A stretch of DNA of 39,031 nucleotides. It comes from Spirochaetae bacterium HGW-Spirochaetae-5. GTDB taxonomy: Bacteria > Spirochaetota > UBA4802 > UBA5550. Shown here piece by piece: positions 9,601 through 33,058 of the stretch. A model generated the notes under the pieces. That model searched no databases, was not told the origin of the DNA, and saw only the letters and a program-made list of their open reading frames with translations. The stretch is from NCBI GenBank assembly GCA_002839285.1, contig PGXT01000013.1, forward strand, positions 1-39,031, read 5' to 3'. Position numbers and translations under genes: made by a program. Each line of letters begins with the position of its first letter. Position 1 is the first letter of the stretch.

Positions 9601-10085
9601 ATGACGTAATACTGGCAAAAGTTGAATTATCAAAAAAAAAATGTGATTCTCATCTGGAAAAGATGAACAAAGCATCTGTCGGGCTTAAACCGGTTTTTCC
9701 TCTGACAGAGCATGCGTTGAAAAATTTAGCTGACGAAACAGTCACTCTTCTTGATCAGTTTCTGTATCGGTTTATGAAACTTCAGGATGCAATGGGAACG
9801 AGATTTATACCGGTAATAGCCGGACTAATAATCGGCAATAATGATCCAAGGCCGTTTATTGATAATCTGAATATACTTGAAAAAAACGGAGCAATAGATT
9901 CTGCTGAAAAATGGCAGGAATTGAGGAATTTAAGAAATAGATTAGCTCATGAATATCCTGATGATATCGGACAGACAGCAGATGCTTTCAATATGCTGAT
10001 GACAGAATGGACGTATTTGCGTGATATGTATCTATCGATTAAGGGATATTTTGATCAAAGATTGGCCACAGATAAACACAGATAA
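9597..10085 (+). CDS. hepT: HEPN-domain toxin (HepT-like)
   Basis: A 162-residue helical protein. Near residues 122-129 it reads RNRLAHEY, the RX4HXY motif of HEPN ribonucleases paired with MntA; the tyrosine is the residue modified in known systems. It is longer than many DUF86-type HEPN toxins. The last residues (ATDKHR) are encoded by a dispersed CACAGATAAACACAGATAA element that also supplies the stop codon, so the original C-terminus may have differed. Translationally coupled to the preceding nucleotidyltransferase. Confidence 0.85.
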   Translation: MNDVILAKVELSKKKCDSHLEKMNKASVGLKPVFPLTEHALKNLADETVTLLDQFLYRFMKLQDAMGTRFIPVIAGLIIGNNDPRPFIDNLNILEKNGAIDSAEKWQELRNLRNRLAHEYPDDIGQTADAFNMLMTEWTYLRDMYLSIKGYFDQRLATDKHR

Positions 10086-10274: not shown

Positions 10275-11352
10275 ATGAGCAAATTAAAAGTTGATCATGT
10301 CTTCACATCCGAATCTGTAAGTGAGGGTCACCCCGACAAGATTTGTGATCTGGTATCTGATGCCATACTTGATGAATGCCTCAAGCATGACCCTAAAAGC
10401 CGTGTTGCATGTGAAACAGCAACATCAACAAACTTTGTGGTAAATATAGGCGAAATAACCTGTGACGGGTGGCAGAATTCATGGACAATCTGCTGATATT
10501 GCAATGGGTGTAGATGAATACGAGGGACACGAACAGGGTGCAGGCGACCAGGGAATGATGTTCGGCTACGCCACTACTTCAACACCGGAACTTATGCCGG
10601 CGCCTATTCTTTACAGTCACCTGCTTTTAAACAGGCTGCAGGATATAAGAAAGAAAAAAGTAATATCATATCTCCGCCCTGATTCAAAGTCTCAGGTATC
10701 GGTAAGACACGTGAAGGGGATTCCTACAGAGATAACATCCGTAGTTATATCCCACCAGACAGATGAAGTATCACTTGATCTGATTCGAAAAGACCTTATT
10801 GAAGTTGTAAAGGATACTTTATCATTCACACGACTTCTTACCGATAAGACAGAATACTATATTAACCCCACAGGAAAGTTTGTAATCGGTGGACCTCATG
10901 GGGATGCCGGGCTTACCGGACGTAAAATCATAGTCGATTCATACGGCGGAGTAGGGTGCCATGGCGGCGGCGCATTCTCAGGGAAAGATCCGTCCAAGGT
11001 TGACAGATCGGCAGCATATTACGCAAGATATGCCGCAAAGAATATTGTAGCAGCAGGGCTTGCCGATAAATGTGAAATACAGGTAGCATATGCAATTGGC
11101 GTATCTAAACCGCTGAGCATAAATGTAAGTACCTTCGGTACTGCAAAGGTGGATGAAGAGAAAATTCAGCAGGTGCTTGAATCCGAAGAGATTTTCTGCT
11201 TTAGACCGGCAAAGCTGATACAGGCGCTGGGGCTGATGAATCCGAAGGGGTGGTGTTACCATAACACTGCTGCTTATGGTCATTTTGGACGGGATATTTT
11301 CCCATGGGAGAAAACCGATAAAGCGGATGAATTGAAGAGGGTGTTGTTGTAG
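10275..11352 (+). pseudogene. metK: S-adenosylmethionine synthetase, internal deletion plus frameshift
   Basis: The N-terminus ([20 protein letters not shown] through NIGEITC) and the C-terminus ([70 protein letters not shown]) are well conserved but lie in different frames. Only about 25 bases separate GEIT from QSAD; in intact MetK proteins about 39 residues lie there. Roughly 90 bases are missing and the frame is broken, with TGA at 10494. Intact MetK makes SAM from methionine and ATP. MetK is normally essential, so another copy must exist, or this locus is misassembled. I see no SAM riboswitch upstream. Confidence 0.85.
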
Positions 11353-14062: not shown

Positions 14063-15133
14063 ATGCGTAAACTTGAAAATATTCTTGTAACGGGCGGGGC
14101 CGGATTTATAGGTTCAAATTTTATCCGTTATGTATTTAAAAATACCGGATTTAAAGGTAAAATTATAAATCTGGATAAACTTACATATGCAGGTAATGCC
14201 GAAAGCTTATCTGATATAAACAGTGAATTCGGTGATGAAAGATATTCTTTTGTTCATGGAGATATTTGTGACAAAGATCTTGTAAGTAGAGTATTTATTG
14301 ATTACAATATTGATACAGTAATTCATTTTGCAGCAGAGTCCCATGTTGACAGATCTATACACGGGCCTGCAGAGTTTATGAATACAAATATTATTGGCAC
14401 GTTTACACTTCTTGATGCTGCAAAAAATTTCTGGAACGGTAGAAGTGATGTTTTGTTCCATCATATAAGTACAGATGAAGTTTACGGATCACTGGGCGAC
14501 AGCGGCTATTTTTTTGAAACAACACCATACGATCCCAGGAGCCCATATTCAGCATCAAAGGCATCATCTGATCATATTGTAATGGCTTATAATCACACAT
14601 ACGGCCTCCCTGTTACAATTACAAACTGTTCCAACAATTACGGGCCTTATCAGTTTCCCGAAAAACTTATCCCTGTAATAATTTTTAATATTATGGACAA
14701 TAAAACACTCCCTGTTTACGGTGACGGTAAAAATATTCGTGACTGGCTTTTTGTTGATGATCACAACAGCGCAGTTTGGGCTGTTGTTAACAACGGACGA
14801 AATGGTGAAACATATAACGTCGGCGGCGAGAATGAGTGGGAGAATATAAAACTGGTAACAGCCCTATGTGAAAAGATGGCTTTAATTAAAGGGAAAGATA
14901 AAAATAATTTTGAATCACTGATAAATTATGTAAAAGATAGACCGGGCCATGACAGAAGGTATGCTATAAATTGTGATAAGATTAAATTGGAACTGGGATG
15001 GAAGCAGACTGTCAGTTTTGATCAAGGGCTTGATTTAACTATAGACTGGTATTTAAAGAATACTCAATGGATAAGCAATATTAGAAGCGGCGAGTATAAA
15101 AAATGGATTGAAAAGAACTACGGCAGCAGATAG
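14063..15133 (+). CDS. rfbB: dTDP-glucose 4,6-dehydratase
   Basis: 356 residues with AGAGGA before the ATG. It shows LVTGGAGFIGSNFIRY (NAD site), HFAAESHVDRSIHGP, HISTDEVYGSLG, SPYSASKASSDH (YxxxK) and TNCSNNYGPYQFPEKLIP, all typical of RmlB. It converts dTDP-glucose to dTDP-4-keto-6-deoxyglucose. It completes the rhamnose set. The intermediate could also feed the aminotransferase at 31931. Confidence 0.97.
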   Translation: MRKLENILVTGGAGFIGSNFIRYVFKNTGFKGKIINLDKLTYAGNAESLSDINSEFGDERYSFVHGDICDKDLVSRVFIDYNIDTVIHFAAESHVDRSIHGPAEFMNTNIIGTFTLLDAAKNFWNGRSDVLFHHISTDEVYGSLGDSGYFFETTPYDPRSPYSASKASSDHIVMAYNHTYGLPVTITNCSNNYGPYQFPEKLIPVIIFNIMDNKTLPVYGDGKNIRDWLFVDDHNSAVWAVVNNGRNGETYNVGGENEWENIKLVTALCEKMALIKGKDKNNFESLINYVKDRPGHDRRYAINCDKIKLELGWKQTVSFDQGLDLTIDWYLKNTQWISNIRSGEYKKWIEKNYGSR

Positions 15134-15229: not shown

Positions 15230-16084
15230 ATGGAAAACAACATAGAACAGAACTGGACAACAATCATAAAGCCTCAATCAAGTCTGCTGTCACTTAATCT
15301 TAAAGATTTGTGGAGATACAGAGATCTGATAAAAATGTTTATAATAAGGGATTTTGTTACTTTTTATAAACAGACAATCCTCGGGCCCTTATGGTTTATT
15401 ATTCAACCGCTTTTTACCGCTTTAATGTTCACTTTTATATTCGGTACAGTTGCAAAGATATCGACTGACGGCATACCTCCAATGCTTTTTTATATGGCCG
15501 GGATAGTTAACTGGGCGTATTTTTCCGAGTCGCTAACTAAAACTTCCGATACATTTATTGCCAATGCCGGCGTGTTTGGAAAGGTATATTTCCCAAGGCT
15601 TACGGTGCCTGCGTCAGTTGTTATTGCAACCATGATAAGATATATTATTCAGTTTGGTATTTTTCTGGTTGTATATTTTATTTTTATGCTTAAAGGGTAT
15701 GATCTTAAACCAAACTGGATGGTCCTGTTAACACCGGTTCTCCTGCTCTATATGGCCATTATGAGTTTCGGTTTTGGAATATGGATATCATCATTAACCA
15801 CTAAATACAGAGATTTAAGATTTGCACTTCCATTTTTTGTTCAGCTATGGATGTACGCCACACCAGTAGTCTATCCTCTTTCACTTATACCTGAGAAATA
15901 TAAATTCTTTATTATACTAAATCCCATTGTCCCAGTTATGGAAATTTTCAGAATGGGTTATCTTGGTGCCGGAACGGTAGATGTTAATCAGATTTTAATA
16001 AGTATAGGAATCACATTTTTTATTCTTATAACGGGGATTATTATTTTCAACAGAATAGAGAAAACTTTTATGGATACGGTTTGA
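15230..16084 (+). CDS. wzm: Polysaccharide ABC exporter permease
   Basis: 284 residues with about six hydrophobic segments of the ABC-2 polysaccharide exporter type. The N-terminal coupling region reads YRDLIKMFIIRDFVTFYKQT followed by GPLWFIIQPLF; later WISSLTTKYRDLRFALPFFV and YATPVVYPLSLIP match Wzm/TagG-like proteins. It forms the inner-membrane channel that exports completed lipid-linked glycans. Its ATPase partner begins only at 18140, because three small gene units and repeats intervene; wzm and wzt are normally adjacent. No strong Shine-Dalgarno is seen. Confidence 0.93.
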   Translation: MENNIEQNWTTIIKPQSSLLSLNLKDLWRYRDLIKMFIIRDFVTFYKQTILGPLWFIIQPLFTALMFTFIFGTVAKISTDGIPPMLFYMAGIVNWAYFSESLTKTSDTFIANAGVFGKVYFPRLTVPASVVIATMIRYIIQFGIFLVVYFIFMLKGYDLKPNWMVLLTPVLLLYMAIMSFGFGIWISSLTTKYRDLRFALPFFVQLWMYATPVVYPLSLIPEKYKFFIILNPIVPVMEIFRMGYLGAGTVDVNQILISIGITFFILITGIIIFNRIEKTFMDTV

Positions 16085-16208: not shown

Positions 16209-16535
16209 ATGGCACAAATGATTGATCTTAATAAGATTAAGAAAGCATTATCAGATAAAAGAGTACGTTTTAGATCTCATTCAGCAGAGATGATAATAGA
16301 ACGGAATATACTTAAACAGGAAGTTTATGACACCTTACAGTTTGGAGAAGTAATTGAGGAATACATCACAGACAAACCATTCCCTAGTTATTTATTCTTT
16401 TTTCACAATGGCATGAAACCTATCCATGTAGTATGTTCTTATAATAATATTGATGATTATGTGGTTATTATTACAGTGTACATACCGGATGATGATCATT
16501 TTGAAAGTGATTTCAGGTCAAGGAGAAAAAAATGA
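16209..16535 (+). CDS. DUF4258 protein, probable toxin component
   Basis: 108 residues. It shows the DUF4258 pattern FRSHSAEMIIERNI, then FGEVIEEYITDKPFPSYLFF, KPIHVVCSY and VVIITVYIPDDDHFESDFRS. The family has a RelE/BrnT-like size and is often encoded next to small zinc-finger antitoxin-like proteins, as here. The stop overlaps the next start by 4 bases (ATGA). AAAAGGAATG precedes the ATG at 16209. RNase or toxin activity is inferred only from family and pairing. Confidence 0.82.
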   Translation: MAQMIDLNKIKKALSDKRVRFRSHSAEMIIERNILKQEVYDTLQFGEVIEEYITDKPFPSYLFFFHNGMKPIHVVCSYNNIDDYVVIITVYIPDDDHFESDFRSRRKK

Positions 16536-16771
16536 GTGAAAATATGACAGTATGCCCGACATGTAATGGTTCAATTGCTGGAGGAACTACAATGTTTACC
16601 GCTAAAATCGGCAATGGTATTCTTATACTTGAAGATGTTCCTGCTGAAATTTGTTCTTTATGTGGTGAGAAATGGTTTTCAGATGTTGTTTTGGATAAAA
16701 TCGAATCTATTGCAAATGATGTTCGTAAGCGGCACATCAAATTTGAAATAATAACTTTTAATGCGGCTTGA
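16532..16771 (+). CDS. YgiT-type zinc-finger protein, probable antitoxin
   Basis: 79 residues with CPTCNG near residue 8 and CSLCGEKW near residue 46, a CxxC...CxxC zinc site like the N-terminal domain of MqsA/YgiT. The MqsA-type HTH half is absent, as in many stand-alone YgiT-type proteins paired with DUF4258. Coupled to the preceding gene; the two form the first unit inserted between wzm and wzt. Confidence 0.85.
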   Translation: MSENMTVCPTCNGSIAGGTTMFTAKIGNGILILEDVPAEICSLCGEKWFSDVVLDKIESIANDVRKRHIKFEIITFNAA

Positions 16772-16784
16772 TAGGGCGAGGGTG

Positions 16785-16857
16785 GTCTAAAGTTGAAAGG
16801 GGAAAGTTGAAAGTATTGTGGCTCAAACTTTCAACTTTTCACTTTCAACTTTCATCT
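16785..16857. repeat. Heptamer-word palindromic element, copy 3
   Basis: 73 bases: GTCTAAAGTTGAAAG on the left, core gaaagtattgtggctcaaac, and CACTTTCAACTTTCATCT on the right. It separates the DUF4258/YgiT-type pair from the four-helix-bundle gene. The right terminus is less perfect than in copies 1, 2 and 5. Confidence 0.88.
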
Positions 16858-16867
16858 GGTGTAAACT

Positions 16868-17218
16868 ATGAAAATAGAGCGATTTGAAGATTTGATCGTG
16901 TGGCAGAAAGCGAAAGAATTGACCGTTATTGTTTATTCAATATTTCAAAACAACAAAGATTTCGGATTTCGTGACCAGATTCAGCGTGCATCAGTTTCTG
17001 TGATGAATAATATTGCTGAAGGATTTGAGAGAAAGGGTGCAAAAGAGTATTCCAGGTTTCTATATATAGCTAAAGGTTCAGCTGGTGAAGTGAGATCGAT
17101 GTTGTATATAGCCAGAGAGCTTGATTATATTGATAAAGAAACATTTGACAGATGTTATAGTTTGGCAGAAGATATATCGAAGATGTTAGCGGGGTTGGTA
17201 AAAAAAGTTGAAAGTTGA
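16868..17218 (+). CDS. Four-helix-bundle (S23-type) protein
   Basis: 116 residues matching the S23/TIGR02436 four-helix-bundle family: MKIERFEDLIVWQKAKELTV, FGFRDQIQRASVSVMNNIAE, GFERKGAKEYSRFLYIAKGS and AGEVRSMLYIARELDYID. The family is also known from intervening sequences of 23S rRNA genes and as free-standing genes; its role is unclear. The last codons (KVES and the stop) are made of repeat copy 4, so the repeat has fixed the 3' end of the gene. Confidence 0.88.
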   Translation: MKIERFEDLIVWQKAKELTVIVYSIFQNNKDFGFRDQIQRASVSVMNNIAEGFERKGAKEYSRFLYIAKGSAGEVRSMLYIARELDYIDKETFDRCYSLAEDISKMLAGLVKKVES

Positions 17219-17293
17219 AGGTCTAAAGATGAAAGTATAGTGTCACAAACTTTCATCTTTCCCCTTTCATCTTTCCCCTTTCAACTTTCATCT
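17205..17293. repeat. Heptamer-word palindromic element, copy 4
   Basis: About 89 bases: AAAGTTGAAAGTTGAAGGTC on the left, core gaaagtatagtgtcacaaac, and several CTTTCATCTTTCCCC words on the right. It overlaps the 3' end of the four-helix-bundle gene and ends just before the ribosome binding site of the next antitoxin gene. Confidence 0.88.
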
Positions 17294-17308
17294 CTTAAAG
17301 GAGTAATT

Positions 17309-17560
17309 ATGAAAGCATTTAAAACACGAATCAAACTTAAAGATCTTAGAAGTATCATAGATATACCAAAAGATATTATTTCTCAGGAAGTTGAGATTAT
17401 TATTTTGTCAGAAACTATATCTCGAAAACCGGTATCTGTTAAAAGGGATCGAGGTAAAGTCGGTGGTATTTTAAATAGATATGCCGATTCCAGTTTAGTT
17501 AAAAACGAGAAAGATAATGCCTGGACTAAAATTATAGAGGATAAACATGGTTTATTGTGA
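17309..17560 (+). CDS. Antitoxin of a second PIN-type pair
   Basis: The start at 17309 follows AAAGGAG; the longer in-frame reading from 17240 would translate repeat copy 4. The 83-residue product begins MKAFKTRIKLKDLRSIIDIP and continues SQEVEIIILSE, a short beta-rich N-terminus followed by a basic and then charged tail. This fits PIN-associated antitoxins, though I do not recognise a specific family. It overlaps the toxin gene by 14 bases. Confidence 0.75.
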   Translation: MKAFKTRIKLKDLRSIIDIPKDIISQEVEIIILSETISRKPVSVKRDRGKVGGILNRYADSSLVKNEKDNAWTKIIEDKHGLL

Positions 17561-17948
17561 TGCCAATATTGTTTTAAGGTATCTGTTACGCGATAATGAA
17601 GATCATTACAAAATTTCTTTGAGTATAATCGAAACAGAAGATGTATTTCTTCTTAACGAAGTGACAGCTGAAATTGTCTATGTACTTCTTAAGACATATT
17701 CTATTGAAAAGAAAAAAGTCTGTGATGTTTTAACAAAATTATTTTTATATCCTAATATTTATTTTTATTCAAAGGAAGTAATCCTTGATGCACTTGATAT
17801 TTTTTCTAAAAATTCAATAGATTATGTAGATTGTATTTTATGCGCATATAATAACATTGAAAAACGTAAAATCATATCATTTGACAAAAAAGTTGTTTCA
17901 TTTATAAAAAAATCGAAAGGGCAAGGGAAGGCGAAGGTTAAAAGTTAA
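17547..17948 (+). CDS. PIN-domain ribonuclease toxin (VapC-like)
   Basis: 133 residues beginning MVYCDANIVLRYLLRDNEDH, with Asp in CDAN. Other expected acidic positions are the Glu of LNEVTAEIVY, the Asp of DYVDCILCAY and the Asp of ISFDKKV, so the PIN active site looks complete. Unlike the toxin at 6577, this one is intact. The basic tail (KSKGQGKAKVKS) runs into repeat copy 5, which supplies the stop codon. Third unit of the wzm-wzt insertion. Confidence 0.85.
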   Translation: MVYCDANIVLRYLLRDNEDHYKISLSIIETEDVFLLNEVTAEIVYVLLKTYSIEKKKVCDVLTKLFLYPNIYFYSKEVILDALDIFSKNSIDYVDCILCAYNNIEKRKIISFDKKVVSFIKKSKGQGKAKVKS

Positions 17949-18139: not shown

Positions 18140-19411
18140 ATGTCACAAACAGTAATACGCGTCGAAAACCTTTACAAAGAATATAAGCTTGGTGTAATAA
18201 GCCATGGCACCCTTACTCATGACCTTCAGTCGTGGTGGGCACGGATGCGTGGTAAGGAGGACCCCAATTCACTGATTTCAGTACATCATAGTGCAGACGC
18301 AGAAAAGGATAGTTTTCTGGCCCTTAAGGATGTTACCTTTGAAATAAAACAGGGGGATAGAGTAGGGATAGTCGGGAAAAATGGAGCTGGTAAATCAACA
18401 TTGCTTAAAGTTTTATCAAAAATTACATCACCAACAAGCGGACAAGTTAAGATCAAAGGACGTATTGCTGCTCTTCTTGAGGTTGGTACCGGTTTTCATG
18501 CTGAACTGACTGGACGGGAGAATATTTACCTTAACGGCGCTATACTTGGTATGAATAAAAAAGAGATTGATCAAAAATTGGACGAAATTATTGATTTTGC
18601 CGGTGTTGAAAAACATATTGATACACCAGTTAAGAGGTATTCAAGCGGGATGAATGTACGGCTTGGATTTGCAATTGCTGCACACCTGGATCCTGAAATT
18701 TTAATTGTAGATGAAGTTCTTGCTGTAGGGGATGCCGAGTTTCAGAAGAAGGCACTCGGAAAGATGGAGAATGTGAGTAAAACCGATGGCCGGACAATAT
18801 TATTTGTAAGTCATAATATGGCAAGCGTTAGTAAATTATGCACTAGTGGGGTATTACTGAGTAATGGTATTGTTGAGTACATCGGTAAAATAGAGGATTG
18901 TGTTGATAGATATTTGAACCATGATTATCAAGATGATAATTTAACTAATACTATATATGAACATGATATCAGAAAGAGAATACAGCTTCATGCTGCTCGT
19001 GTGGTAGATAACAATGGGGTTGAAAAATTTGTATTTTCTTGTGACGAATCTGTTAATATTGAAATGAATATCAATGTTACATCTTTCGAATCCGGAGACT
19101 ATGGGTATTTATCGATTTATAAAAAAGATGGAACAATTATTTTAGTCTCAGATAGCAATGATATTTATAGGGATAGCCTAAAAAAATTAAAATTAGGCAG
19201 AAATAAAGTATATCTCACATTACCACCAAGAACGTTAGGACACGGAGAGTATAGGGTCCTTTTATCAATAACAGATTCAAATGGGGGATCTGGTCAATTA
19301 GATCTTTGCGAAAGGATTTGTAGTTTTAAATTGTCTGATACAAGTACAGTAAGAGCTGATACTAGAGGTGGTTATTTAAGTACTCTTTTGGAATGGAAAA
19401 TAGAACCTTAA
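18140..19411 (+). CDS. wzt: Polysaccharide ABC exporter ATPase with glycan-recognition domain
   Basis: 423 residues. The N-terminal ATPase shows Walker A GKNGAGKST, signature YSSGMNVRLGFA, Walker B ILIVDEVLAVGD and the switch His in FVSHNMAS. From about residue 270 it carries a beta-sandwich C-terminal domain like the Wzt C-domain, which binds the modified non-reducing end of the O-chain. It powers export with the permease at 15230. Base composition drops visibly at about 18840: the ATPase half resembles the rhamnose genes while the C-domain half resembles the AT-rich island downstream, suggesting a recombination joint inside the gene. Confidence 0.93.
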   Translation: MSQTVIRVENLYKEYKLGVISHGTLTHDLQSWWARMRGKEDPNSLISVHHSADAEKDSFLALKDVTFEIKQGDRVGIVGKNGAGKSTLLKVLSKITSPTSGQVKIKGRIAALLEVGTGFHAELTGRENIYLNGAILGMNKKEIDQKLDEIIDFAGVEKHIDTPVKRYSSGMNVRLGFAIAAHLDPEILIVDEVLAVGDAEFQKKALGKMENVSKTDGRTILFVSHNMASVSKLCTSGVLLSNGIVEYIGKIEDCVDRYLNHDYQDDNLTNTIYEHDIRKRIQLHAARVVDNNGVEKFVFSCDESVNIEMNINVTSFESGDYGYLSIYKKDGTIILVSDSNDIYRDSLKKLKLGRNKVYLTLPPRTLGHGEYRVLLSITDSNGGSGQLDLCERICSFKLSDTSTVRADTRGGYLSTLLEWKIEP

Positions 19412-19480: not shown

Positions 19481-20194
19481 ATGAAAGTTGCTGTTGTTAC
19501 AGGAGCAAATGGTCAATTAGGTATGGCGTTTGTTCAGACTCTGGTTAATTCGGATTATCACGTATATGCTTTAGATTTAAAAATAGATAACATTAAGAAG
19601 GAAAATAATCTGACACCTGTTTGCTTAGATATCACTAGAGAAAAAGATGTTCATGAATTTTATAATTTATTTACTGAAATTGATATTTTAGTAAATAATG
19701 CAGGAATTGGTGTTTTTACAAAATTTGAGGATAGAACAGCTGAAGAGTTTGAGAATGTTATGAAAGTTAATCTTTTAGGAACTTTTTTAATGTCTCAGGG
19801 AGCTTTAAAATTAATGAAAGTCCAGAGCTATGGGAAAATTATTAACGTGGGGTCAATTTATGGTGTGGTATCTAGCGATGAAAGAATTTATGGAGACAGT
19901 GGTAGAAATAATTCAGAAGTTTATTCGGCAACAAAATCTGGTGTGATTCATATGACTAAATATATGGCTGCACATTTCGGGAAGTATAATATTCAGGTTA
20001 ATTGTATCTCTCCAGGTGGCATTTTTAATAATCAGTCCTCTGATTTTAAAAAAAATTATGAATATAAAACTCCGATGGGGCGCTTGGGTAATCCAGAGGA
20101 TTTACAGAGCGCTTTGAAGTATTTGATCTCCGACGAAACAAAATATACTAATGGTATTAACATAATAGTTGATGGTGGTTTTTGCGCATGGTAA
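19481..20194 (+). CDS. Short-chain dehydrogenase/reductase
   Basis: 237 residues with a purine-rich ribosome binding region (GAGGAAAGGG) upstream. Classical SDR motifs: VVTGANGQLGMAFVQTL (cofactor glycines), NNAGIG, NVGSIYG (catalytic Ser region), YSATKSG (YxxxK) and ISPGGI. Related SDRs (for example PtmA) occur in flagellin and legionaminic-acid clusters. Here it overlaps the FAD-NeuB fusion by 7 bases, so a role in the nonulosonic-acid pathway is likely; the substrate is unknown. Confidence 0.88.
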   Translation: MKVAVVTGANGQLGMAFVQTLVNSDYHVYALDLKIDNIKKENNLTPVCLDITREKDVHEFYNLFTEIDILVNNAGIGVFTKFEDRTAEEFENVMKVNLLGTFLMSQGALKLMKVQSYGKIINVGSIYGVVSSDERIYGDSGRNNSEVYSATKSGVIHMTKYMAAHFGKYNIQVNCISPGGIFNNQSSDFKKNYEYKTPMGRLGNPEDLQSALKYLISDETKYTNGINIIVDGGFCAW

Positions 20195-22581
20195 AAAAGT
20201 ATTACATACTTGGTGGTGGTATTACAGGATTAGTATTAGAATATGAGCTCCTTAAAAAAGGCCAGATTGTTGAAATTATAGAAAGAGACATGAGTGTCGG
20301 TGGTTTAGCGAAATCCTTTGAGTGGAGAGGCCGTATGATTGATCTGGGGCCACATATTTATCACACTCCGAATGATGACATATTGTCATATTGGGGTAAA
20401 GAATTTCGCGGTCTTTTTTGTGAGAGAGAGCACTGGAGTAAAAATTTAAGACTTGGAAAACTTTATGATTATCCAATTTCCAATGAATTTATAGAAGGAT
20501 TGCCAAAAGAAATAAAAGAAAAGATTTTAAATGAGTTAGATCATTGTAACTCAGCAGAGTTAACAAAAGCAACGACATATTATGAGTATATAAGAGCATT
20601 GGCGGGAGAGACTCTTCAAGATATGTTTTTTATGAAATATCCTGAAAAAGTATGGGGACTTTCTACAAAGGAACTTGATGCAAATTGGGCTCCAAAACGT
20701 ATTGAAATAAGAAAGCAAAGATCACCTTTTTACTGGGGGCAATGGAGTGCTGTAGGTAATAAGGGTAGTGGTACCATTATTGATTCTCTCAAAGAAAAAG
20801 TGTTCAAATTGGGCGGTTCGATTAGCTTGCTGGAAGAAGTAAAAAACATTGTTCTTGATGATGATAGAATTAAAAAAATTGAAACTTCTAAGAGAGATAT
20901 CTTTATAAATAATAATGACGTAGTGATTAATACTACTTCTTATACACAGATTGCTAAGATTTTAAAAATTGATACAACTTTAAAATATAGAGGTATAAGA
21001 TTTGTATTTTTGGCAATTAATAAAATTGATGTTTTCCCTGAAGGTGTCGATTTTATATATATTGATGACCCATCTATATATTTCAATCGCATTTCCGATC
21101 AAAATTCTTTCGTAAAAGATCCCGTTAGGAATAGCACAGTAATCTGTTGTGAGATTACTTTTAGTAAAGGTGATTTTATTGATCAGATTGATGATGAAAC
21201 ATTAGCAAAATCTGTTACGGAACAATTTGCTATTCTTGGATTTTGCAAAAAAGAAGATATAGTGGACAGTAAGGTTGTGAAGGTCATGGAAGTATATCCG
21301 ATGTTTTTTTTGGGATATCAGAATGCTCTTTCTATAACTAAGTCAAAGATCGATAAAATCAGTAATATGTATACAATCGGTAGCCTTGCAGAATATGCAT
21401 ATACAGATATGCAGGTACTCTTTGGTAAAGCAATTGACCTGGCAGAGATTTTAACAAACAAAACTTTTAAAATGAATCAAATAAATAAGACTATTCCACG
21501 TCTCAATTTTAATAAAAAAGTAATCATTTCAAATTCTATTATAGGTGAAGGCGAGAAAACCTATATAGTCGCTGAAATAGGACTCAATCATAATGGAGTT
21601 CTCTCTGTTGCAAAAAAGCTTATTGATGAAGCTATTAGTGTGGGTGCTGATGCAGTAAAATTACAAAGTTATAAAAGTGAGAATAGAGTTGCTGAAAATG
21701 GTAAAACATCGAGATATGTTGAGAGAATCCTCGGGATGGAAGAAACAGACTTTGAAATGTTCAAGAAAAATGAACTTTCATATCAACAGGTTAAAGAACT
21801 CTTCGAATATGCAAAAGGGAAAATAACAATTTTTTCAGCCCCTTTTGATACAGAGAGTGTTGATGAACTTGAGCAGCTTGGAATTGATTTTTACAAGATC
21901 GCTTCTTTCGATCTGGTTAATTTACCATTAATTAAAAAAGTAGCACTTACAGGAAAACCGATTATTTTATCAACTGGTATGAGTTCCCTTGCTGAAGTAG
22001 AGGAAGCACTTAGAGTAATTGCAAATTGCGATAATAAAAATGTAATACTTTTACATTGCACATCTTCTTATCCGGCACCTCCTGAAAACATGAATATTAG
22101 GGCAATAGATACTATGCGTATGGCCTTTCAAGTTCCTGTAGGTTTATCGGATCATGTAATAGGCGATCACATAAGTCTTGCTGCTGTGGCTCGTGGAGCC
22201 AATATAATAGAAAAGCATTTTACACTTGATAAAAGAATGGAAGGACCTGATCATGTTTTATCTGTAGAACCAAGAGAGTTTAAGGATCTTATTACAAGAG
22301 TGCGTTCTGTTGAGCAGTCATTGGGTACTGGCATTAAGCAGGCTTCACCCGATGAGATATCAACAATGATTAGATTTAGAAAAACAATGTACATTAATAA
22401 AACTTTGCAGAAAGGTTCTTCAATTACAGAGAATGATATTGTTTATAAAGGCCCTGCTTATGGTTTATACTCAAAATTTGAAGATTTCGTTGTAGGTCAG
22501 AAAGTAAATAGAGATGTTGAAGCTGATACACCCTTAACATGGGATTTGTTTAATAATATGGATGCTAACAATGTTAGATAA
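20188..22581 (+). CDS. Fusion: FAD-dependent oxidoreductase + NeuB-type nonulosonate synthase
   Basis: About 797 residues from ATG 20188 (a TTG two codons earlier is possible). Residues 1-430: YILGGGITGLVLEYELLKKG, an FAD-binding GxGxxG-type motif, then VGGLAKSFEWRGRMIDLGPH as in amine-oxidase/UDP-galactopyranose-mutase-like flavoproteins, and a C-terminal TIGSLAEYAYTDMQ. Residues 445-797: NeuB, with YIVAEIGLNHNG, ADAVKLQSYK, FSAPFDTESVDELEQLG, YKIASFDLVNLPLI, LSTGMSSLAEVEEAL, LHCTSSYPAP, GLSDHVIG and EKHFTLDK. A SAF antifreeze-like domain follows (FRKTMYINKTLQKGSSITEN...GPAYGL). The NeuB half condenses phosphoenolpyruvate with a six-carbon amino sugar to a nine-carbon acid. The flavin half may modify the precursor or product. 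No stop or ribosome binding site separates the halves. Confidence 0.92.
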   Translation: MVKKYYILGGGITGLVLEYELLKKGQIVEIIERDMSVGGLAKSFEWRGRMIDLGPHIYHTPNDDILSYWGKEFRGLFCEREHWSKNLRLGKLYDYPISNEFIEGLPKEIKEKILNELDHCNSAELTKATTYYEYIRALAGETLQDMFFMKYPEKVWGLSTKELDANWAPKRIEIRKQRSPFYWGQWSAVGNKGSGTIIDSLKEKVFKLGGSISLLEEVKNIVLDDDRIKKIETSKRDIFINNNDVVINTTSYTQIAKILKIDTTLKYRGIRFVFLAINKIDVFPEGVDFIYIDDPSIYFNRISDQNSFVKDPVRNSTVICCEITFSKGDFIDQIDDETLAKSVTEQFAILGFCKKEDIVDSKVVKVMEVYPMFFLGYQNALSITKSKIDKISNMYTIGSLAEYAYTDMQVLFGKAIDLAEILTNKTFKMNQINKTIPRLNFNKKVIISNSIIGEGEKTYIVAEIGLNHNGVLSVAKKLIDEAISVGADAVKLQSYKSENRVAENGKTSRYVERILGMEETDFEMFKKNELSYQQVKELFEYAKGKITIFSAPFDTESVDELEQLGIDFYKIASFDLVNLPLIKKVALTGKPIILSTGMSSLAEVEEALRVIANCDNKNVILLHCTSSYPAPPENMNIRAIDTMRMAFQVPVGLSDHVIGDHISLAAVARGANIIEKHFTLDKRMEGPDHVLSVEPREFKDLITRVRSVEQSLGTGIKQASPDEISTMIRFRKTMYINKTLQKGSSITENDIVYKGPAYGLYSKFEDFVVGQKVNRDVEADTPLTWDLFNNMDANNVR

Positions 22582-23668
22582 TTTTTATGAAAATTTAAAA
22601 AAAAATATTTTTGAAGTAAAGGAATATAATAAAATCTCAATTTTTACTATTTCTACAACTTCAAAGCAGGAAGATGAACCCTATCTTACTCCAATCAGAT
22701 ATAGTAAAGATTTTTCTGCTTTTGGTTGTGTGATTTTTAATCAGTCGATTATTTTAAATATTATTGAAATTATGGATGGGCAAGTTGATATTATTCTGGT
22801 AGATGGTGAAAAGAAAATACCTCTTACGATTTATAGGGATATTGATGAAGTAAACAATGTTTTCTATAAAACACGTAAAACTATAGGACTTGTTGAAACT
22901 GGCAATCTATCAAAAATATGTTTTATGTATGTTAAAAAATCTAAGATTTATGAATACAAGCCCAATGATTTAACTGTAAATGCTACTTGGATGTTTTTAA
23001 GTCATCGATTTAAGGAATTAAGTGGTAAGAAAATAACTGTACTCGGCGTAGGTAATATCGGATCTAAACTATCCTTGAAGTTGGTAGAGTGTGGTGCACA
23101 GGTTCATATCCATAGAACCAATTCATTTGTAGGACATCTGATTGAACAGGGATTGAATTGCATAAAGCCACAAAACACAGTGTCAAAAATTGAGTTTCAT
23201 CAGAATCCTCTTCAGGCATCATTTATGTCTGAAATAGTAATAGGTGCCTCTAATGGTGTTCAGGTGATTAATGTTGATATAGTTAAATCGCTGAGTAGAA
23301 ATTGCTTGATAGTAGATTTAGGTAAAAACAATATAACGCCTGATGCAATTGATTATGCAACTTCTCAAGGTATTGAAATATATAGGTCAGATATAACATC
23401 CGCTTTTGAAGGGTATATTTATGAAATACTGAAAATGGAAAATATTTTATGTTCGTCCTATGGGAAAAAAGATTTAGGGTTTTGTACAGTTGTTGGTGGA
23501 GGTTATTTTGGTAGTGACGGTGATATAGTTGTAGATAAAATCATTTCGCCTGAGGTTGTAATTGGTGTTGCAGCTGGAGATGGATCAATAAAGAAGAATC
23601 TTAATGAAGAAGATAAAAAAAGATTAGAGCGATTAATGAAGGAGTTTAATATTGAAACAGTATGGTAA
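22562..23668 (+). CDS. Orphan Rossmann-fold NAD(P)-binding protein
   Basis: 368 residues (ATG at 22562 or 22571, both inside the NeuB gene end). I do not recognise a named family. Residues 1-150 are of unknown fold. Near residue 160 it has KKITVLGVGNIGSKLSLKLV, a clear GxGxxG dinucleotide site followed by GAQVHIHRTN, where the basic/polar end suggests NADP. Then come MSEIVIGASNGVQVI and CLIVDLGKNNIT, resembling the cofactor domain of hydroxyacid dehydrogenases or SAH-hydrolase-like proteins. The C-terminus has a glycine-rich VVGGGYFGSDGD. Its place between NeuB and NeuA points to oxidation or reduction of the nonulosonic acid or its precursor. Confidence 0.75.
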   Translation: MLTMLDNFYENLKKNIFEVKEYNKISIFTISTTSKQEDEPYLTPIRYSKDFSAFGCVIFNQSIILNIIEIMDGQVDIILVDGEKKIPLTIYRDIDEVNNVFYKTRKTIGLVETGNLSKICFMYVKKSKIYEYKPNDLTVNATWMFLSHRFKELSGKKITVLGVGNIGSKLSLKLVECGAQVHIHRTNSFVGHLIEQGLNCIKPQNTVSKIEFHQNPLQASFMSEIVIGASNGVQVINVDIVKSLSRNCLIVDLGKNNITPDAIDYATSQGIEIYRSDITSAFEGYIYEILKMENILCSSYGKKDLGFCTVVGGGYFGSDGDIVVDKIISPEVVIGVAAGDGSIKKNLNEEDKKRLERLMKEFNIETVW

Positions 23669-24695
23669 ACCAAGTACAGCATTAATACTTCAGAAGACAT
23701 CTTTTTTTGAAGAAAATGAATTGCATATAAAAAAACAAAGACAGATTTCAGAAATTTATATTAAACAGCCAAAAAGAAAAACATGTAAAAATTGTAATAA
23801 ACCATTAAGCGATGTTAATGATTTTGAAAAAGATGGTATTGGTTATAAAATATGCGATACTTGTACACATCTTAATGGTGCATATGAAGATACAGATAAA
23901 TATTGTAGTCTAATATATGGTAATGATGAAAAAGTGTATGCAGCGAACTATAAAGTGGATGATGTGGAGGCTTTTAATTACAGGGTAAGCTCTATCTACC
24001 ATCCCAAAGCGGAATTTCTCTATACCTCTCTTTTGAGTCATAATGTGAATCCAAATCATTTAAGTTATCTTGATTTTGGTTCAGGGACAGGATATTTTGT
24101 CAGTGCATTAAAAAAAATTGGAATAAAAAATGTTACTGGTACCGAAGTGTCTGAGTCGCAGGTGAGGCTTGGTAACAAAATGATTGGAGAAGAACTTCTT
24201 TTTAAGCATGAACTTATTGATACCCTCAATGTGATTTCTGAAACAAAAACAGATGTGATATCTATGATTGGAGTACTGGAACACCTTCAGGAATCACGAA
24301 GTGTACTGAAATGTATAAGCGAAAATACAAATATTAAATATCTTATGATTTCTGTACCCCTGTTCAGTCTTAGTGTATACTTGGAAATTCTATCTCCAAA
24401 TATTTTCCATAGACATCTTCATGGAGGACATACCCATCTTTACACTGAACAATCAATAAATTATTTATGCAATGAGTTTAAAATGGAAAAAGTTTCGGAG
24501 TGGTGGTTTGGAGCTGACATGGTTGATCTTTACCGAAGCATTTATGTTAAATTAGAGGGAATTGAAGCTTCTGATAAACTCAAGAAAAATTTTGGTGAAA
24601 TGATGAAAGATATAATCGATCCAATACAGCTTGAACTGGATAAAAAAAACAGATCTTCAGAAGTACATCTCCTATTTAAGAAAAGAACGAGTTAA
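23652..24695 (+). CDS. Zinc-ribbon SAM-dependent methyltransferase
   Basis: The start is TTG 23652: AAGGAG lies 8 bases upstream and the frame begins inside the preceding gene. 347 residues. Cys pairs CKNCNKPL and CDTCTHLNG (about residues 48-77) form a zinc-binding N-terminal region like that of sugar C-methyltransferases (NovU/TylC3 type). The methyltransferase core has LDFGSGTGYFVSALKKIG (SAM motif I), GTEVSESQV and MIGVLEHLQESRSVL. It probably methylates an activated sugar or the nonulosonic acid of this cluster; C- versus O-methylation cannot be decided. Confidence 0.82.
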   Translation: MKQYGKPSTALILQKTSFFEENELHIKKQRQISEIYIKQPKRKTCKNCNKPLSDVNDFEKDGIGYKICDTCTHLNGAYEDTDKYCSLIYGNDEKVYAANYKVDDVEAFNYRVSSIYHPKAEFLYTSLLSHNVNPNHLSYLDFGSGTGYFVSALKKIGIKNVTGTEVSESQVRLGNKMIGEELLFKHELIDTLNVISETKTDVISMIGVLEHLQESRSVLKCISENTNIKYLMISVPLFSLSVYLEILSPNIFHRHLHGGHTHLYTEQSINYLCNEFKMEKVSEWWFGADMVDLYRSIYVKLEGIEASDKLKKNFGEMMKDIIDPIQLELDKKNRSSEVHLLFKKRTS

Positions 24696-24697
24696 TT

Positions 24698-25387
24698 ATG
24701 AAAATAGTAACAATTATCCCAGCACGCAGTGGGAGTAAATCAATACCAGGGAAAAATATTTTCCCGCTAAATGGTATCCCATTGATTGCGTATTCTATAG
24801 ATTATTCTTTAAAATCATCTCTTGTTGATAGGACTGTTGTTTCAACAGATTCTCTGGAGATAGCTGATATTTCCCGTAAATATGGTGCAGAAGTTCCCTT
24901 TATCAGGCCTGCAGAATATGCGATGGATGAGACACCGGATTATCCTGTATTCAGACATGCATTGGATTTTTTTGAAGAAAAATGTCAGATCTACGATGTT
25001 TATTTGTTACTGCGTCCGACTTCACCTCTCAGGCCGGATGGTTTAATTGAACAGGCAGTAGAAATTCTTTCTAAAGATCCAAAGATTAGCTCTGTAAGAA
25101 GTATCGCAAAAATAAAGGAACACCCATATAGATCATGGGAAATACAATCTCATGGTAATATGACCGGTTTTGTTAAAATTGTGAATGAACCGTATAATCT
25201 ACCTCGTCAGCAATTACCAGAGGTATATTTTCAGACCGGAGACTTGGAAGCAATTAGAAGGGAGACATTATTAAAAGGATCTATTTCAGGTGATTATATA
25301 TTTCCGTTGATTATTGATCATGAAAATATTGTTGATATTGATTACATATCAGATTTTAAAAAAGCCGAAGGAAAAATGAAAAGATGA
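24698..25387 (+). CDS. neuA: CMP-nonulosonic acid cytidylyltransferase
   Basis: 229 residues of the expected length. It shows IIPARSGSKSIPGKNIFPLN (CTP-binding loop), PLIAYSIDYSLKSSLVDRTV, VSTDSLEIADISRKYGAEVP, LLRPTSPLRPDGLIEQAVEI and FQTGDLEAIRRETL. It activates the NeuB product as the CMP-sugar. The symbol follows the family; the true substrate (sialic, legionaminic, pseudaminic or a new acid) is not determined by sequence. It overlaps the next gene by 4 bases. Confidence 0.93.
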   Translation: MKIVTIIPARSGSKSIPGKNIFPLNGIPLIAYSIDYSLKSSLVDRTVVSTDSLEIADISRKYGAEVPFIRPAEYAMDETPDYPVFRHALDFFEEKCQIYDVYLLLRPTSPLRPDGLIEQAVEILSKDPKISSVRSIAKIKEHPYRSWEIQSHGNMTGFVKIVNEPYNLPRQQLPEVYFQTGDLEAIRRETLLKGSISGDYIFPLIIDHENIVDIDYISDFKKAEGKMKR

Positions 25388-26340
25388 AATACTTAATTTG
25401 TGGAGTTGGATCAATTGGTTTAAGACATTTAAAAAATTTGAAATTTTTGGGTCATAATGACATAATATTATACACAACGGGAAAGAGTTTGGTGCCAGGT
25501 TATTTGGAGGCTACTAAGGATCTGGATAAATATTCAGATATTGATAAAGCTTTAGCCCAAAATCCAGATGTATGTATGATAACAAATCCAACTTCATTAC
25601 ATATTAGCACTGCTATAAAAGCTGCTGAAAATAACTGTCATCTCTTTATTGAGAAGCCTTTATCACACAATCTTGAAGGATTAGGTGATCTTCTGAAGAT
25701 AACCGAAGATAAGAGACTTATAAGTTTTATTACTTATCAATTTCGTTATCATCCTCATGTGAAAATACTTAAAGATATTTTTAAAAATAATCGTAAAACA
25801 GAATATGGAAAACCTTTATATGTGACGTCGGAATGGTCAGAGTATCTTCCAGACTGGCATCCATGGGAAAATTACAAGGAAGGATATTCTGCAAGAAATG
25901 ATCTTGGTGGAGGTGTATTATTAACACAAATTCATCCTGTGAATTACATTAATTACATTTTTGGAGAAATTGATAAAATTACGGTCAATAAAGCATCAAC
26001 GAAAAGTCTTGGTATTGATGTAGATGATGTAGCTGATTTGCTTATTTCTTTTATCAATGGTTTAACCGGTCATGTGCATATTGATTTTTTACAGAAACCG
26101 AGAGTTCATACAATGAAAATTGTTACTGACATGGGTCGTTTCGAGTGGGATTATCATGAAAATCGGTTGGTTTTTCTTGGCTCTAATGGGGATATTATTA
26201 ATTTTGAAAATGATGGTTTTGATAGAAATGATATGTTTATAGATATGTTATCAGATTTTATTGATTGTGTAAAGAATAAAAAGGAAACTAAATTTAATTT
26301 AAAGAGTGCAATAAAAGAAATGCATCAATTGATTGGATGA
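25384..26340 (+). CDS. Gfo/Idh/MocA-family sugar oxidoreductase
   Basis: 318 residues. The N-terminal Rossmann domain begins MKYLICGVGSIGLRHLKNLK. Then come MITNPTSLHISTAIKAAENN and the family signature CHLFIEKPLSHNLEG (EKP). The substrate half includes YQFRYHPHVK, DLGGGVLLTQIHPVNYINYI (conserved His) and HIDFLQKPRVHTMKI. NAD(P)-linked oxidation or reduction of a sugar ring or nucleotide sugar is expected. Coupled to neuA by an ATGA overlap, so it belongs to the nonulosonic-acid operon; such proteins accompany neuA in several flagellin-modification loci. Confidence 0.9.
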   Translation: MKYLICGVGSIGLRHLKNLKFLGHNDIILYTTGKSLVPGYLEATKDLDKYSDIDKALAQNPDVCMITNPTSLHISTAIKAAENNCHLFIEKPLSHNLEGLGDLLKITEDKRLISFITYQFRYHPHVKILKDIFKNNRKTEYGKPLYVTSEWSEYLPDWHPWENYKEGYSARNDLGGGVLLTQIHPVNYINYIFGEIDKITVNKASTKSLGIDVDDVADLLISFINGLTGHVHIDFLQKPRVHTMKIVTDMGRFEWDYHENRLVFLGSNGDIINFENDGFDRNDMFIDMLSDFIDCVKNKKETKFNLKSAIKEMHQLIG

Positions 26341-26419: not shown

Positions 26420-27352
26420 ATGAAGGAGGGGGCTTTGAGGGAAATACCAATTTTTGATGGAATTTTAAAATTGCATTTTGTTAATAAAGTTCTATTGAAA
26501 TTCTATGAGAGAAGCAATAACCTTCGAATCAATGATAGTCTTGATCGAGCAATCAATGAGTCTAAAAGTGAAATAACTAAGATTTCATCACAAAAAGAAA
26601 AAATATATGTTCTTGGAAATGGCCCATCTCTCAGAGAAAGTCTTAGAGTTGGAATAAAAATTCTCAAACAAAATGATTTAATTTGTGTTAATTATTTTTC
26701 TCAATCAGATATGTTCGAGAATTTAAAACCAAAATACTATGTGGTTCTTGACCCCCATTTTACTGACAAAAATTCAGTTGAGAAACAAAATTGTATATTA
26801 ACTGTAAAGCGTATTAATGAAAAAACTACTTGGGAATTGATTATTTTTATTCCTGATTTTATGAAAGAGTGGAGTTATTTTAAGGAAATTACAAATCCAT
26901 ATGTTAAAATTATTTATTTTAAAACGGATTGTATTGATTTTTTAGAAGATGAAATGATAGAATTTAAATTAGCGATGGACAATAGATTTTTTTTAAAGGG
27001 TTGTGGAATTACGGTATTACATGCTGCAATATATTTGTCACTTACTTTAGGTTATAGAAAAGTTTATATTATTGGTGCTGATCACTCATGGCATGTCGAT
27101 GTGAGAGTAGATCAAAATGATAATTCTTTGCTGTCCAACTACTCGCACTTTTATGAAGAAAAGAGGGACTGGTCTCGTCAAAGTGCTTTTCATGGATTTT
27201 CAATGACATCTCTTTTTGAATCTTGGGTATCAGTTTTTAAGGGGCATGAAAAACTAAAAAGATATGCCGATTTTTGTAAAAGTGAAATATATAATGCTTC
27301 TGAACTCAGTTGGATTGATATATATGAGCGTAAGAAATTAGGTAGTGAATAA
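26420..27352 (+). CDS. Cst-II/MptE-like protein, candidate nonulosonyltransferase
   Basis: 310 residues from ATG 26420. AAGGAGG lies inside the first codons, five bases before TTG 26435, so the real start may be that TTG (305 residues). The core shows KIYVLGNGPSLRES (nucleotide-binding GNGPSL), NYFSQSDMFENLKPKYYVVL, GCGITVLHAAIYLSLTLGYR and KVYIIGADHSW. The same order of motifs occurs in GT42 sialyltransferases (Cst-II) and in the MptE/DUF115 superfamily. Placed directly after the neuB-neuA genes, it is a good candidate for transferring the CMP-nonulosonic acid, but this is inference and DUF115-type function remains possible. Confidence 0.7.
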   Translation: MKEGALREIPIFDGILKLHFVNKVLLKFYERSNNLRINDSLDRAINESKSEITKISSQKEKIYVLGNGPSLRESLRVGIKILKQNDLICVNYFSQSDMFENLKPKYYVVLDPHFTDKNSVEKQNCILTVKRINEKTTWELIIFIPDFMKEWSYFKEITNPYVKIIYFKTDCIDFLEDEMIEFKLAMDNRFFLKGCGITVLHAAIYLSLTLGYRKVYIIGADHSWHVDVRVDQNDNSLLSNYSHFYEEKRDWSRQSAFHGFSMTSLFESWVSVFKGHEKLKRYADFCKSEIYNASELSWIDIYERKKLGSE

Positions 27353-31503: not shown

Positions 31504-31938
31504 ATGTTTGAAGAAATAAAAATAAAAAATGAAATACTTGCAATTATAGTCCGTGCGGATTTTTCAAATCATGGGATTAACTTTTTTACTCCCGATGATT
31601 TTTCCCAACAGCTTGCATATATGTCACATCCTGCAGGGAAAGTGATTGATCCTCACGTTCATAATCCTGTAAAAAGAGAAGTTCATTTTACTAAAGAAGT
31701 ACTATTTATTCGAAAAGGAAAACTCCGCGTTGATTTTTATGATGACTGTAAGAACTATCTCGAAAGCAGAATTTTAGAATCTGGAGATGTACTTTTACTT
31801 GCTTCAGGTGGACATGGATTTGAAGCTTTGGAAGACTTGGAAATGTTTGAGGTTAAGCAGGGACCATATGCCGGTGAAAATGATAAAACACGGTTTCAAG
31901 GTATAAATAATAATGGAGTCTGCACAAAGAATGAATGA
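31504..31938 (+). CDS. Cupin-fold protein
   Basis: 144 residues with AAAGGA upstream. The cupin metal-site region reads DPHVHNPVKREVHFTKEVLF (His/His/Glu) with GKLRVDFYDD; the second motif is SGDVLLLASGGHGFEAL. Small cupins of this kind occur in sugar-modification clusters, where some are isomerases or epimerases of keto sugars. It lacks the typical QdtA/FdtA N-terminus, so I do not assign that function. The stop overlaps the start of the aminotransferase. Confidence 0.82.
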   Translation: MFEEIKIKNEILAIIVRADFSNHGINFFTPDDFSQQLAYMSHPAGKVIDPHVHNPVKREVHFTKEVLFIRKGKLRVDFYDDCKNYLESRILESGDVLLLASGGHGFEALEDLEMFEVKQGPYAGENDKTRFQGINNNGVCTKNE

Positions 31939-33058
31939 TAAATTTATACCTGTATGCGAACCCTTCCTGACAGGTAATGAGCTTAAGTATATAACTGATG
32001 CTGTATCAACCGGATGGATCTCATCAGCCGGTTCTTATATAGAAAAGTTTGAACACGCTTTTGCCGAATATTGCGGTGTCAAATATGGAGTTGCAGTTTG
32101 TAACGGTACTGCGGCGCTTCATTTGGCCATTACATCCCTTGGCATTGGTCCAGGTGATGAGGTTATTATACCGGACTTTACAATGGTTGCTTCAGCTTTT
32201 GCTGTCTGCTATTCGGGGGCTAAACCGGTATTTGTAGATGCGGATATATGCACATGGAATATTGACACAAATAAAATTGAAGAAAAAATTACTACTAATA
32301 CTAAAGCCATAATGCCGGTACATATTTTCGGGAATATGTGTAGCATGGATAAAATTGCTGAAATTGCGAATAAGCATAATCTTTTTATCATTGAAGATGC
32401 TGCCGAAGCCCATGGTGCAGAGTATAAAGGGAAGAAGGCCGGAAGTTTTTCTGATATTGCTGCTTTCAGTTTTTTTGCCAATAAAAACATTACCACCGGC
32501 GAGGGTGGAATGATTATTACCGGCGATGAAGAACTTTATAAAAAGGCAAAATATTTTAAAAACCTCTGTTTTCCGCTAGATGGATCAAGAAATTATCTTC
32601 ATAATGAAATAGGTTTTAATTACAGAATGAGCAATCTTCATGCGGCAATAGGTCTTGCCCAGGTTGAAAGAGCTGATTATTATAGAGAGCTAAGAATTAA
32701 AAACCACATGCTTTATAGAAAATACCTTTCAGATTGTGAAGGTGTTGTTTTTCAGACAGATGAAGATAATTCATTAAATGTTCATTGGATGAATTCTATT
32801 CTTATAGACTCTGTTAAATACGGCAGATCAAGAGATGAGCTTATAATTCATTTGAAAGAGAGCGGAATTGACACCAGACTTCTTTTCAATGGGATGCATA
32901 GGCAGGCATCACTTAAAGAATATGGATGTGATTGTACTGGGGAATATAAAATAACTGATTATCTTTCTGAATCCGGATTTTATCTCCCTTCGGGTAGTGG
33001 ATTATCCGAAGATGATATAAAACGTATTTGTAATATAATTGTCAAATTTCATAAATAA
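31931..33058 (+). CDS. DegT/DnrJ/EryC1/StrS-family sugar aminotransferase
   Basis: The ATG at 31931 gives the family N-terminus MNDKFIPVCEPFLTGNELKY; an ATG six codons earlier lies deeper in the cupin gene. About 375 residues. Motifs: GWISSAGSYIEKFEHAFAEY, VCNGTAALHLAITSLGIGPG, DEVIIPDFTMVASAFAVCYS, EDAAEAHGAEYKGKKAGSFS and FSFFANKNITTGEGGMI (PLP lysine in NKNI). It transaminates a keto-sugar nucleotide using PLP. A dTDP-keto sugar derived from the RfbB product is a plausible substrate. Confidence 0.95.
   Translation: MNDKFIPVCEPFLTGNELKYITDAVSTGWISSAGSYIEKFEHAFAEYCGVKYGVAVCNGTAALHLAITSLGIGPGDEVIIPDFTMVASAFAVCYSGAKPVFVDADICTWNIDTNKIEEKITTNTKAIMPVHIFGNMCSMDKIAEIANKHNLFIIEDAAEAHGAEYKGKKAGSFSDIAAFSFFANKNITTGEGGMIITGDEELYKKAKYFKNLCFPLDGSRNYLHNEIGFNYRMSNLHAAIGLAQVERADYYRELRIKNHMLYRKYLSDCEGVVFQTDEDNSLNVHWMNSILIDSVKYGRSRDELIIHLKESGIDTRLLFNGMHRQASLKEYGCDCTGEYKITDYLSESGFYLPSGSGLSEDDIKRICNIIVKFHK

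Follow-up and report, generated by a model that had tools for sequence, protein, structure and literature searches.

The range of nine-carbon acidic sugars that a bacterium can display on its surface is set by NeuB enzymes. The described proteins closest to the one analysed here are, for one part of it, the NeuB/LegI/PseI synthases (PF03102 plus a SAF domain; PDB 1xuu, 8h2c, and 1vli) and, for the other, UDP-galactopyranose mutase (UGM, Glf; PDB 4dsg, 3gf4, and 3hdq) and the PRK07208-type NAD(P)/FAD oxidoreductases encoded in polysaccharide loci. In NeuB, Arg314 is reported to be the only SAF-domain residue that acts directly at the active site, where it positions the N-acetyl group of ManNAc (PMC6795526), and the residue for C2 specificity is Gly in Neu/Leg synthases and Phe in Pse synthases (PMC7371886). 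Among gene clusters, the legionaminic acid clusters with PtmA-LegF-PtmF (Campylobacter and Plesiomonas) are the nearest counterpart.

The window (the whole stretch of DNA that we analysed, 39,031 nucleotides of contig PGXT01000013.1 from Spirochaetae bacterium HGW-Spirochaetae-5) contains one gene that joins both parts. Its open frame occupies 20182-22581 on the forward strand; the first ATG, at 20188, gives a protein of 797 aa, and an in-frame TTG at 20182 is an alternative start. A sequence-only reading had described a single unbroken frame linking a flavoprotein to a complete NeuB with a SAF domain, and this is confirmed: residues 9-330 of the fusion match the Pfam models NAD_binding_8, Amino_oxidase, and GLF (UGM); the NeuB domain (PF03102) covers residues 480-719 (E=1e-87, 293.6 bits against a cut-off of 22.1) and the SAF domain residues 739-788, barely over its cut-off (21.4 versus 21 bits); GC3 is even in the two halves (0.25 and 0.22) and gives no hint of a shift in frame; and the same fusion occurs in an independent assembly, contig JAUYKH010000041.1 (L074) of the MAG "bacterium isolate C24_metabat.bin.187". 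The fusion is a real, rare, and new architecture, of which we found no published description in the open-access literature, and its sequence is best read as that of a bifunctional enzyme. The features of the locus are as follows (basis of each assignment in brackets).

15230-16084, forward strand: Wzm-type ABC-2 polysaccharide export permease (identified from its translated sequence)
18140-19411, forward strand: Wzt-type polysaccharide export ATPase with a Wzt_C domain (profile match)
19481-20194, forward strand: short-chain dehydrogenase/reductase (SDR; adh_short_C2), overlapping the start of the fusion gene; a 44% identical homologue adjoins the L074 fusion (Pfam, L074 comparison)
20188-22581, forward strand: fusion gene, UGM-superfamily flavoprotein plus NeuB plus SAF, 797 aa (open frame, Pfam, L074 homologue)
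20188-21489, forward strand: flavoprotein half, about residues 1-434, with the motifs GxGxxG, GPHIYHT, FFMKYPEKVWG, KYRGIRF, VYP, and EYAYTDM (Pfam, profile alignment)
21535-22578, forward strand: NeuB-type PEP-condensing half with the SAF domain; the tested PEP/metal residues are all kept (Pfam, alignment, fold match)
22450-22452, forward strand: codon of Gly755, which aligns with Arg314 of N. meningitidis NeuB and is Gly in the L074 fusion too (profile alignment)
22562-23668, forward strand: RED, an NAD-dependent 2-hydroxyacid-dehydrogenase/DpaA-like dehydrogenase, overlapping the last 20 bases of the fusion gene; 37% identical L074 homologue (Pfam, L074 comparison)
23652-24695, forward strand: SAM-dependent methyltransferase; a 25% identical homologue lies just upstream of the L074 fusion (Pfam, L074 comparison)
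24698-25387, forward strand: CMP-nonulosonate-type cytidylyltransferase (CTP_transf_3; PseF/LegF-like), here the CMP-transferase; 60% identical L074 homologue (Pfam, NCBIfam, L074 comparison)
25384-26340, forward strand: Gfo/Idh/MocA oxidoreductase, in a PtmF-like position (Pfam)
26420-27352, forward strand: MptE-like (PF01973) protein with an NGPSL motif, a candidate transferase of the product (Pfam; role inferred)

The genes for the SDR, the fusion, RED, the methyltransferase, the CMP-transferase, and the Gfo/Idh/MocA oxidoreductase overlap or lie at most 3 bases apart, so these six are very likely co-translated. Wzm/Wzt-type export genes, dTDP-rhamnose-type genes, and glycosyltransferases surround them, and by its gene content the locus is one for an ABC-exported surface polysaccharide; the NGPSL motif of the MptE-like protein is one known from nonulosonate-linked transferase families. 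A NeuB-type synthase beside a CMP-sugar transferase, a trait of nonulosonate clusters, is found both in the window and in L074. The legionaminic acid clusters share the SDR, CMP-transferase, and Gfo/Idh/MocA-type genes beside NeuB, whereas the cassette has no counterparts of PtmE, LegB, LegG, and LegH and adds the flavoprotein, RED, and the methyltransferase. RED served as a marker and, beyond the window and L074, was not found in about 1,280 further genomes from five phyla, searched in sets of 296, 380, 198, 198, 181, and 231 genomes, of which the set of 231 overlaps that of 380, and blanks in the sets of 198, 198, and 181 are weak, as these had no positive genome; its predicted structure is poor (mean pLDDT 42). 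Between the Wzm- and Wzt-type genes, at 16209-17948, are genes for a DUF4258 protein, a 23S rRNA-intervening-sequence protein, and a VapBC-like pair of a small protein and a PIN-domain protein, which suggests insertions into the polysaccharide locus.

For the flavoprotein half, a profile of both fusion flavoproteins has UGMs as its nearest solved structures (E=1e-18), and among NCBIfam models PRK07208 is the best match (162 bits) and the UGM model TIGR00031 reaches 57.8 bits (cut-off 303.75), all scores being below the cut-offs. We compared active-site residues using the residue table of D. radiodurans UGM, with the roles given there, as the reference (PMC3624792). Both fusions are identical to UGM at His85, Phe176, Tyr179, Trp184, Arg305, Tyr335, and Tyr370, and share its GPHI(Y/F)HT loop; counterparts of His109, Arg364, Asn296, and Tyr371 are absent, with Arg364, which contacts the FAD pyrophosphate, replaced by Ser/Thr and His109, a galactose contact, by Ser/Cys, and Arg198 aligns to Lys or Arg in a mapping that hinges on a one-residue gap. 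The half is about 21% identical to UGM, falls on a separate deep branch, and unlike UGM is fused to NeuB. To PRK07208-type proteins it is 22-28% identical over its whole length; these have GPHRFFS/GGHRFFS-type loops and an insert of about 20 residues that the fusions lack, and they stand alone, not adjoining NeuB in the loci examined (in one of them, L086, a distant NeuB-like gene lies 4 kb off). Most of the UGM residues kept in the fusions are also present in PRK07208-type proteins, so their conservation does not prove mutase chemistry; what the fusions have in common with UGM and not with PRK07208-type proteins is the GPHI(Y/F)HT loop and the missing insert. Two other candidate separators of the fusions from PRK07208 were dropped: the equivalent of UGM Arg174/198, as its mapping rests on one gap and PRK07208 has an adjacent Arg, and the His, which all rows keep. 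Of the earlier description of this half as "UGM/amine-oxidase-like", the kinship to UGM stands, UGMs being the nearest solved relatives, and "amine-oxidase-like" proved too loose for a protein on its own deep branch between UGM and the PRK07208-type proteins.

We tentatively read the flavin chemistry as UGM-like rather than redox, a modest preference that comes from the loop and the missing insert shared with UGM. It is possible, if somewhat unlikely, that the flavoprotein half instead oxidises or desaturates an intermediate, as amine oxidases, desaturases, and protoporphyrinogen oxidases do, and that the fusion channels substrate to a normal NeuB. The Amino_oxidase Pfam match and the presence of three other oxidoreductases in the window cassette are consistent with such a role, as are the fold matches of the predicted flavoprotein half, which are to protoporphyrinogen oxidase-type structures; however, the low confidence of the prediction for this half leaves its fold ranking with little meaning, and the two-fusion profile finds UGM first.

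The NeuB half was mapped on N. meningitidis NeuB; the structural work used an alignment with NeuB rows only, as alignments that mixed fusions with NeuB and flavoprotein sequences were misaligned. Full-length homology, the Mn/PEP residues, and the SAF domain are shared with NeuB/LegI/PseI synthases, and the predicted structure of this half, which has good confidence, matches 1xuu and 8h2c (TM to target about 0.88-0.90). Since both fusions keep every tested PEP/metal residue (E25, K53, Q55, K129, S154, Y186, S213, H215, E234, H236, and D247), the NeuB half should be able to condense PEP. The fusion differs from these synthases in its added N-terminal flavoprotein of 434 aa, in scoring below the NCBIfam cut-offs for both of its closest models, N-acetylneuraminate synthase (TIGR03569, 367.5 versus 399.65) and pseudaminate synthase (TIGR03586, 312.3 versus 340.25), and at Arg314: in a profile alignment with the crystal proteins 4ipi (R314A) and 4ipj (R314K), this site is the Gly of a KGP motif in both fusions. 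Among the 30 rows that span the site besides the window, 28 have Arg, one has Met (the very divergent L086), and the one Gly is that of the L074 fusion. At the C2-specificity site the window has Phe and L074 has Met, where Neu/Leg synthases have Gly; Phe at this site does not by itself exclude an N-acetyl substrate, because Pse synthases also have it.

The usual UDP-sugar hydrolysing epimerase had been noted as missing from the window, and this extends further: there is no NeuC- or PseG-like gene in the window or in the L074 stretch (the PseG search covered these and short stretches around two other NeuB loci of the host), and the whole host genome, 95% complete, has no match to Epimerase_2 (the NeuC/LegG/WecB family), which 11 of 14 control genomes match. 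Together, the change of Arg314 to Gly, the Phe or Met at the C2-specificity site, and the lack of Epimerase_2 and of a nearby NeuC or PseG argue for a substrate of the NeuB half that, to judge from these residues and genes, would lack the standard C2 N-acetyl group, and we consider this probably a new cassette for an ulosonate not derived from an N-acetylhexosamine. The suggestion of an unusual route is likewise likely to be right, given a fusion conserved with its partners in a second lineage, the missing hydrolysing epimerase, and the loss of Arg314; the flavin-dependent step directly before or after PEP condensation and the interdomain tunnel that came with this suggestion are hypothetical. 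A normal N-acetylated nonulosonate, with the Gly at the Arg314 site compensated elsewhere and the precursor supplied from outside the window, appears unlikely. It would agree with the closest stand-alone NeuBs (40-46% identity), some of which have NeuC/NeuD-like or Gfo/CMP/SDR genes next to them, the arrangement of ordinary Neu/Leg clusters, and with the cytidylyltransferase, SDR, and oxidoreductase, which also occur in legionaminic clusters as LegF, PtmA, and PtmF; but Arg314 is reported to be key at the catalytic site (PMC6795526), its replacement by Gly is common to both fusions, and the host genome shows no Epimerase_2 match.

On balance, we favour a bifunctional enzyme encoded in a small cassette, moved horizontally, that would supply a surface polysaccharide exported by the ABC route with a CMP-activated ulosonic acid. 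The core cassette would consist of the fusion, the SDR, RED (2-hydroxyacid-dehydrogenase-like), and the CMP-transferase, plus the methyltransferase. The NeuB half would condense PEP with a sugar that does not carry the customary N-acetyl group at C2, and C5 of the product would bear a hydroxyl or some other group; the CMP-transferase would activate this product; and the SDR, RED, and the methyltransferase would tailor it. In the UGM-like flavoprotein half, N5 of reduced FAD would attack the anomeric carbon of a nucleotide-linked sugar, which may be the CMP-product (with a ring change to the furanose) or a precursor. Set against this explanation are that UGM acts on NDP-sugars and CMP-ulosonates carry one phosphate, that the UGM Arg364 and His109 equivalents are replaced in the fusions, and that only two fusions are known among the matches listed, both from MAGs. 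A more specific version is speculative, with a low probability: the product of the fusion would be a 5-hydroxy (Kdn-like) ulosonic acid, and a UGM-like flavin reaction on the CMP form of this acid would yield its furanose form. A furanose ring would need a free C5 hydroxyl, and this reading fits the loss of the N-acetyl-gripping Arg314; to our knowledge, a flavin mutase for a CMP-ulosonate would be the first. Two E. coli capsules, K74 and K95, contain furanosidic Kdo (PMC7387560, PMC12887879), and we found no account in the open-access literature of an enzyme that makes it.

It is also improbable that the flavoprotein acts before the NeuB half, on a nucleotide-linked hexose (by a pyranose/furanose or similar conversion), with another enzyme freeing the sugar for PEP condensation: UGM-like residues of the diphosphate/uracil site are kept and a UGM-type mutase, the CDP-fucose mutase, works with cytidine nucleotides (PMC12369002), but a hydrolase of the NeuC or PseG kind is found neither in the window nor in the L074 stretch. 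That an assembly or sequencing error joined two neighbouring genes is very improbable, and for practical purposes ruled out by L074, an independent assembly with the fusion in the same operon, and GC3 is even across the junction, even though the contig has at least one probable frameshift (in the metK-like gene near 10275-11352). The favoured reading makes the conserved fusion, with its changed substrate-gripping residue and a cassette lacking the usual precursor enzymes, a pointer to an acidic sugar outside the Neu, Leg, and Pse routes, and the enzymatic question, including that of UGM-type flavin chemistry on ulosonic acids, can be tested with one protein and four neighbours.

The domain pair had been proposed for a search in protein databases, and a profile scan of genome contigs brought up the second fusion in L074, in one frame (811-aa open frame) and 44% identical to that of the window end to end (39% in the flavoprotein half, by the profile scan). 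The homologues of the SDR, RED, and the CMP-transferase (the last at 14347-15030) lie downstream of the L074 fusion and that of the methyltransferase upstream, and the homologue of the Gfo/Idh/MocA gene is about 8 kb off, so this gene is not part of the core of the cassette. The L074 host belongs to another phylum: its source genome has 0.8 Mb and its listed phylum-mates mostly about 0.5-1.3 Mb, unlike the phylum of the window host, so the two hosts are distant. In trees, both halves of the fusions form their own clades; the NeuB halves are sisters (support 99/98), as are the flavoprotein halves (100/97), whose shared long branch falls between UGM and the PRK07208-type proteins; its deep placement is unsure, as long branches meet near the fusion clade. 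The simplest reading is that the two parts fused once and the fusion then spread horizontally, and horizontal movement is the best reading for the cassette.

At least two fusions are known among the matches listed in the profile scan. NeuB matches are common in the 98 genomes that comprise the window's own and 97 relatives, and only the window's match spans both halves, with no other fusion in the 97 relatives. In 393 genomes of the window's phylum there is no close relative of the flavoprotein half, the best matches being stand-alone proteins of at most 28% identity; as a single-protein query it gave no matches in the viral and genome collections, where the profile scan was needed. No fusion was found in plasmids or phages, in which tblastn gave separate NeuB or UGM/PRK07208 proteins only, or in the viral collections with the two-fusion profiles.

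L074 also encodes another NeuB (7734-8780), which stands alone and retains the usual Arg. Close to it are a further SDR gene and cytidylyltransferase, HAD, and ATP-grasp genes, so that this contig has two ulosonate routes side by side. Two further NeuB-like genes lie in the host genome outside the window (contigs C167:7240-8304 and C265:499-1398), the second beside a cytidylyltransferase-like gene. Elsewhere in the window, the S-adenosylmethionine synthetase-like gene at 10275-11352 is split, its N-terminal segment stopping near 10494 and the central and C-terminal domains lying in the next frame, likely by a frameshift or sequencing error. At 9298-10085 a Nucleotidyltransferase (MNT-type) and HepT-like pair resembles an MNT/HEPN toxin-antitoxin module, and at 37-3378 a protein of 1113 aa with no Pfam match has many imperfect repeats around LFPLYY/W-type motifs. 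A small cupin-like protein without a Pfam match is followed by a DegT/DnrJ aminotransferase at 31504-33058, and a similar small protein (34% identity) is found in a NeuB locus of a viral contig (L041:6068-6445).
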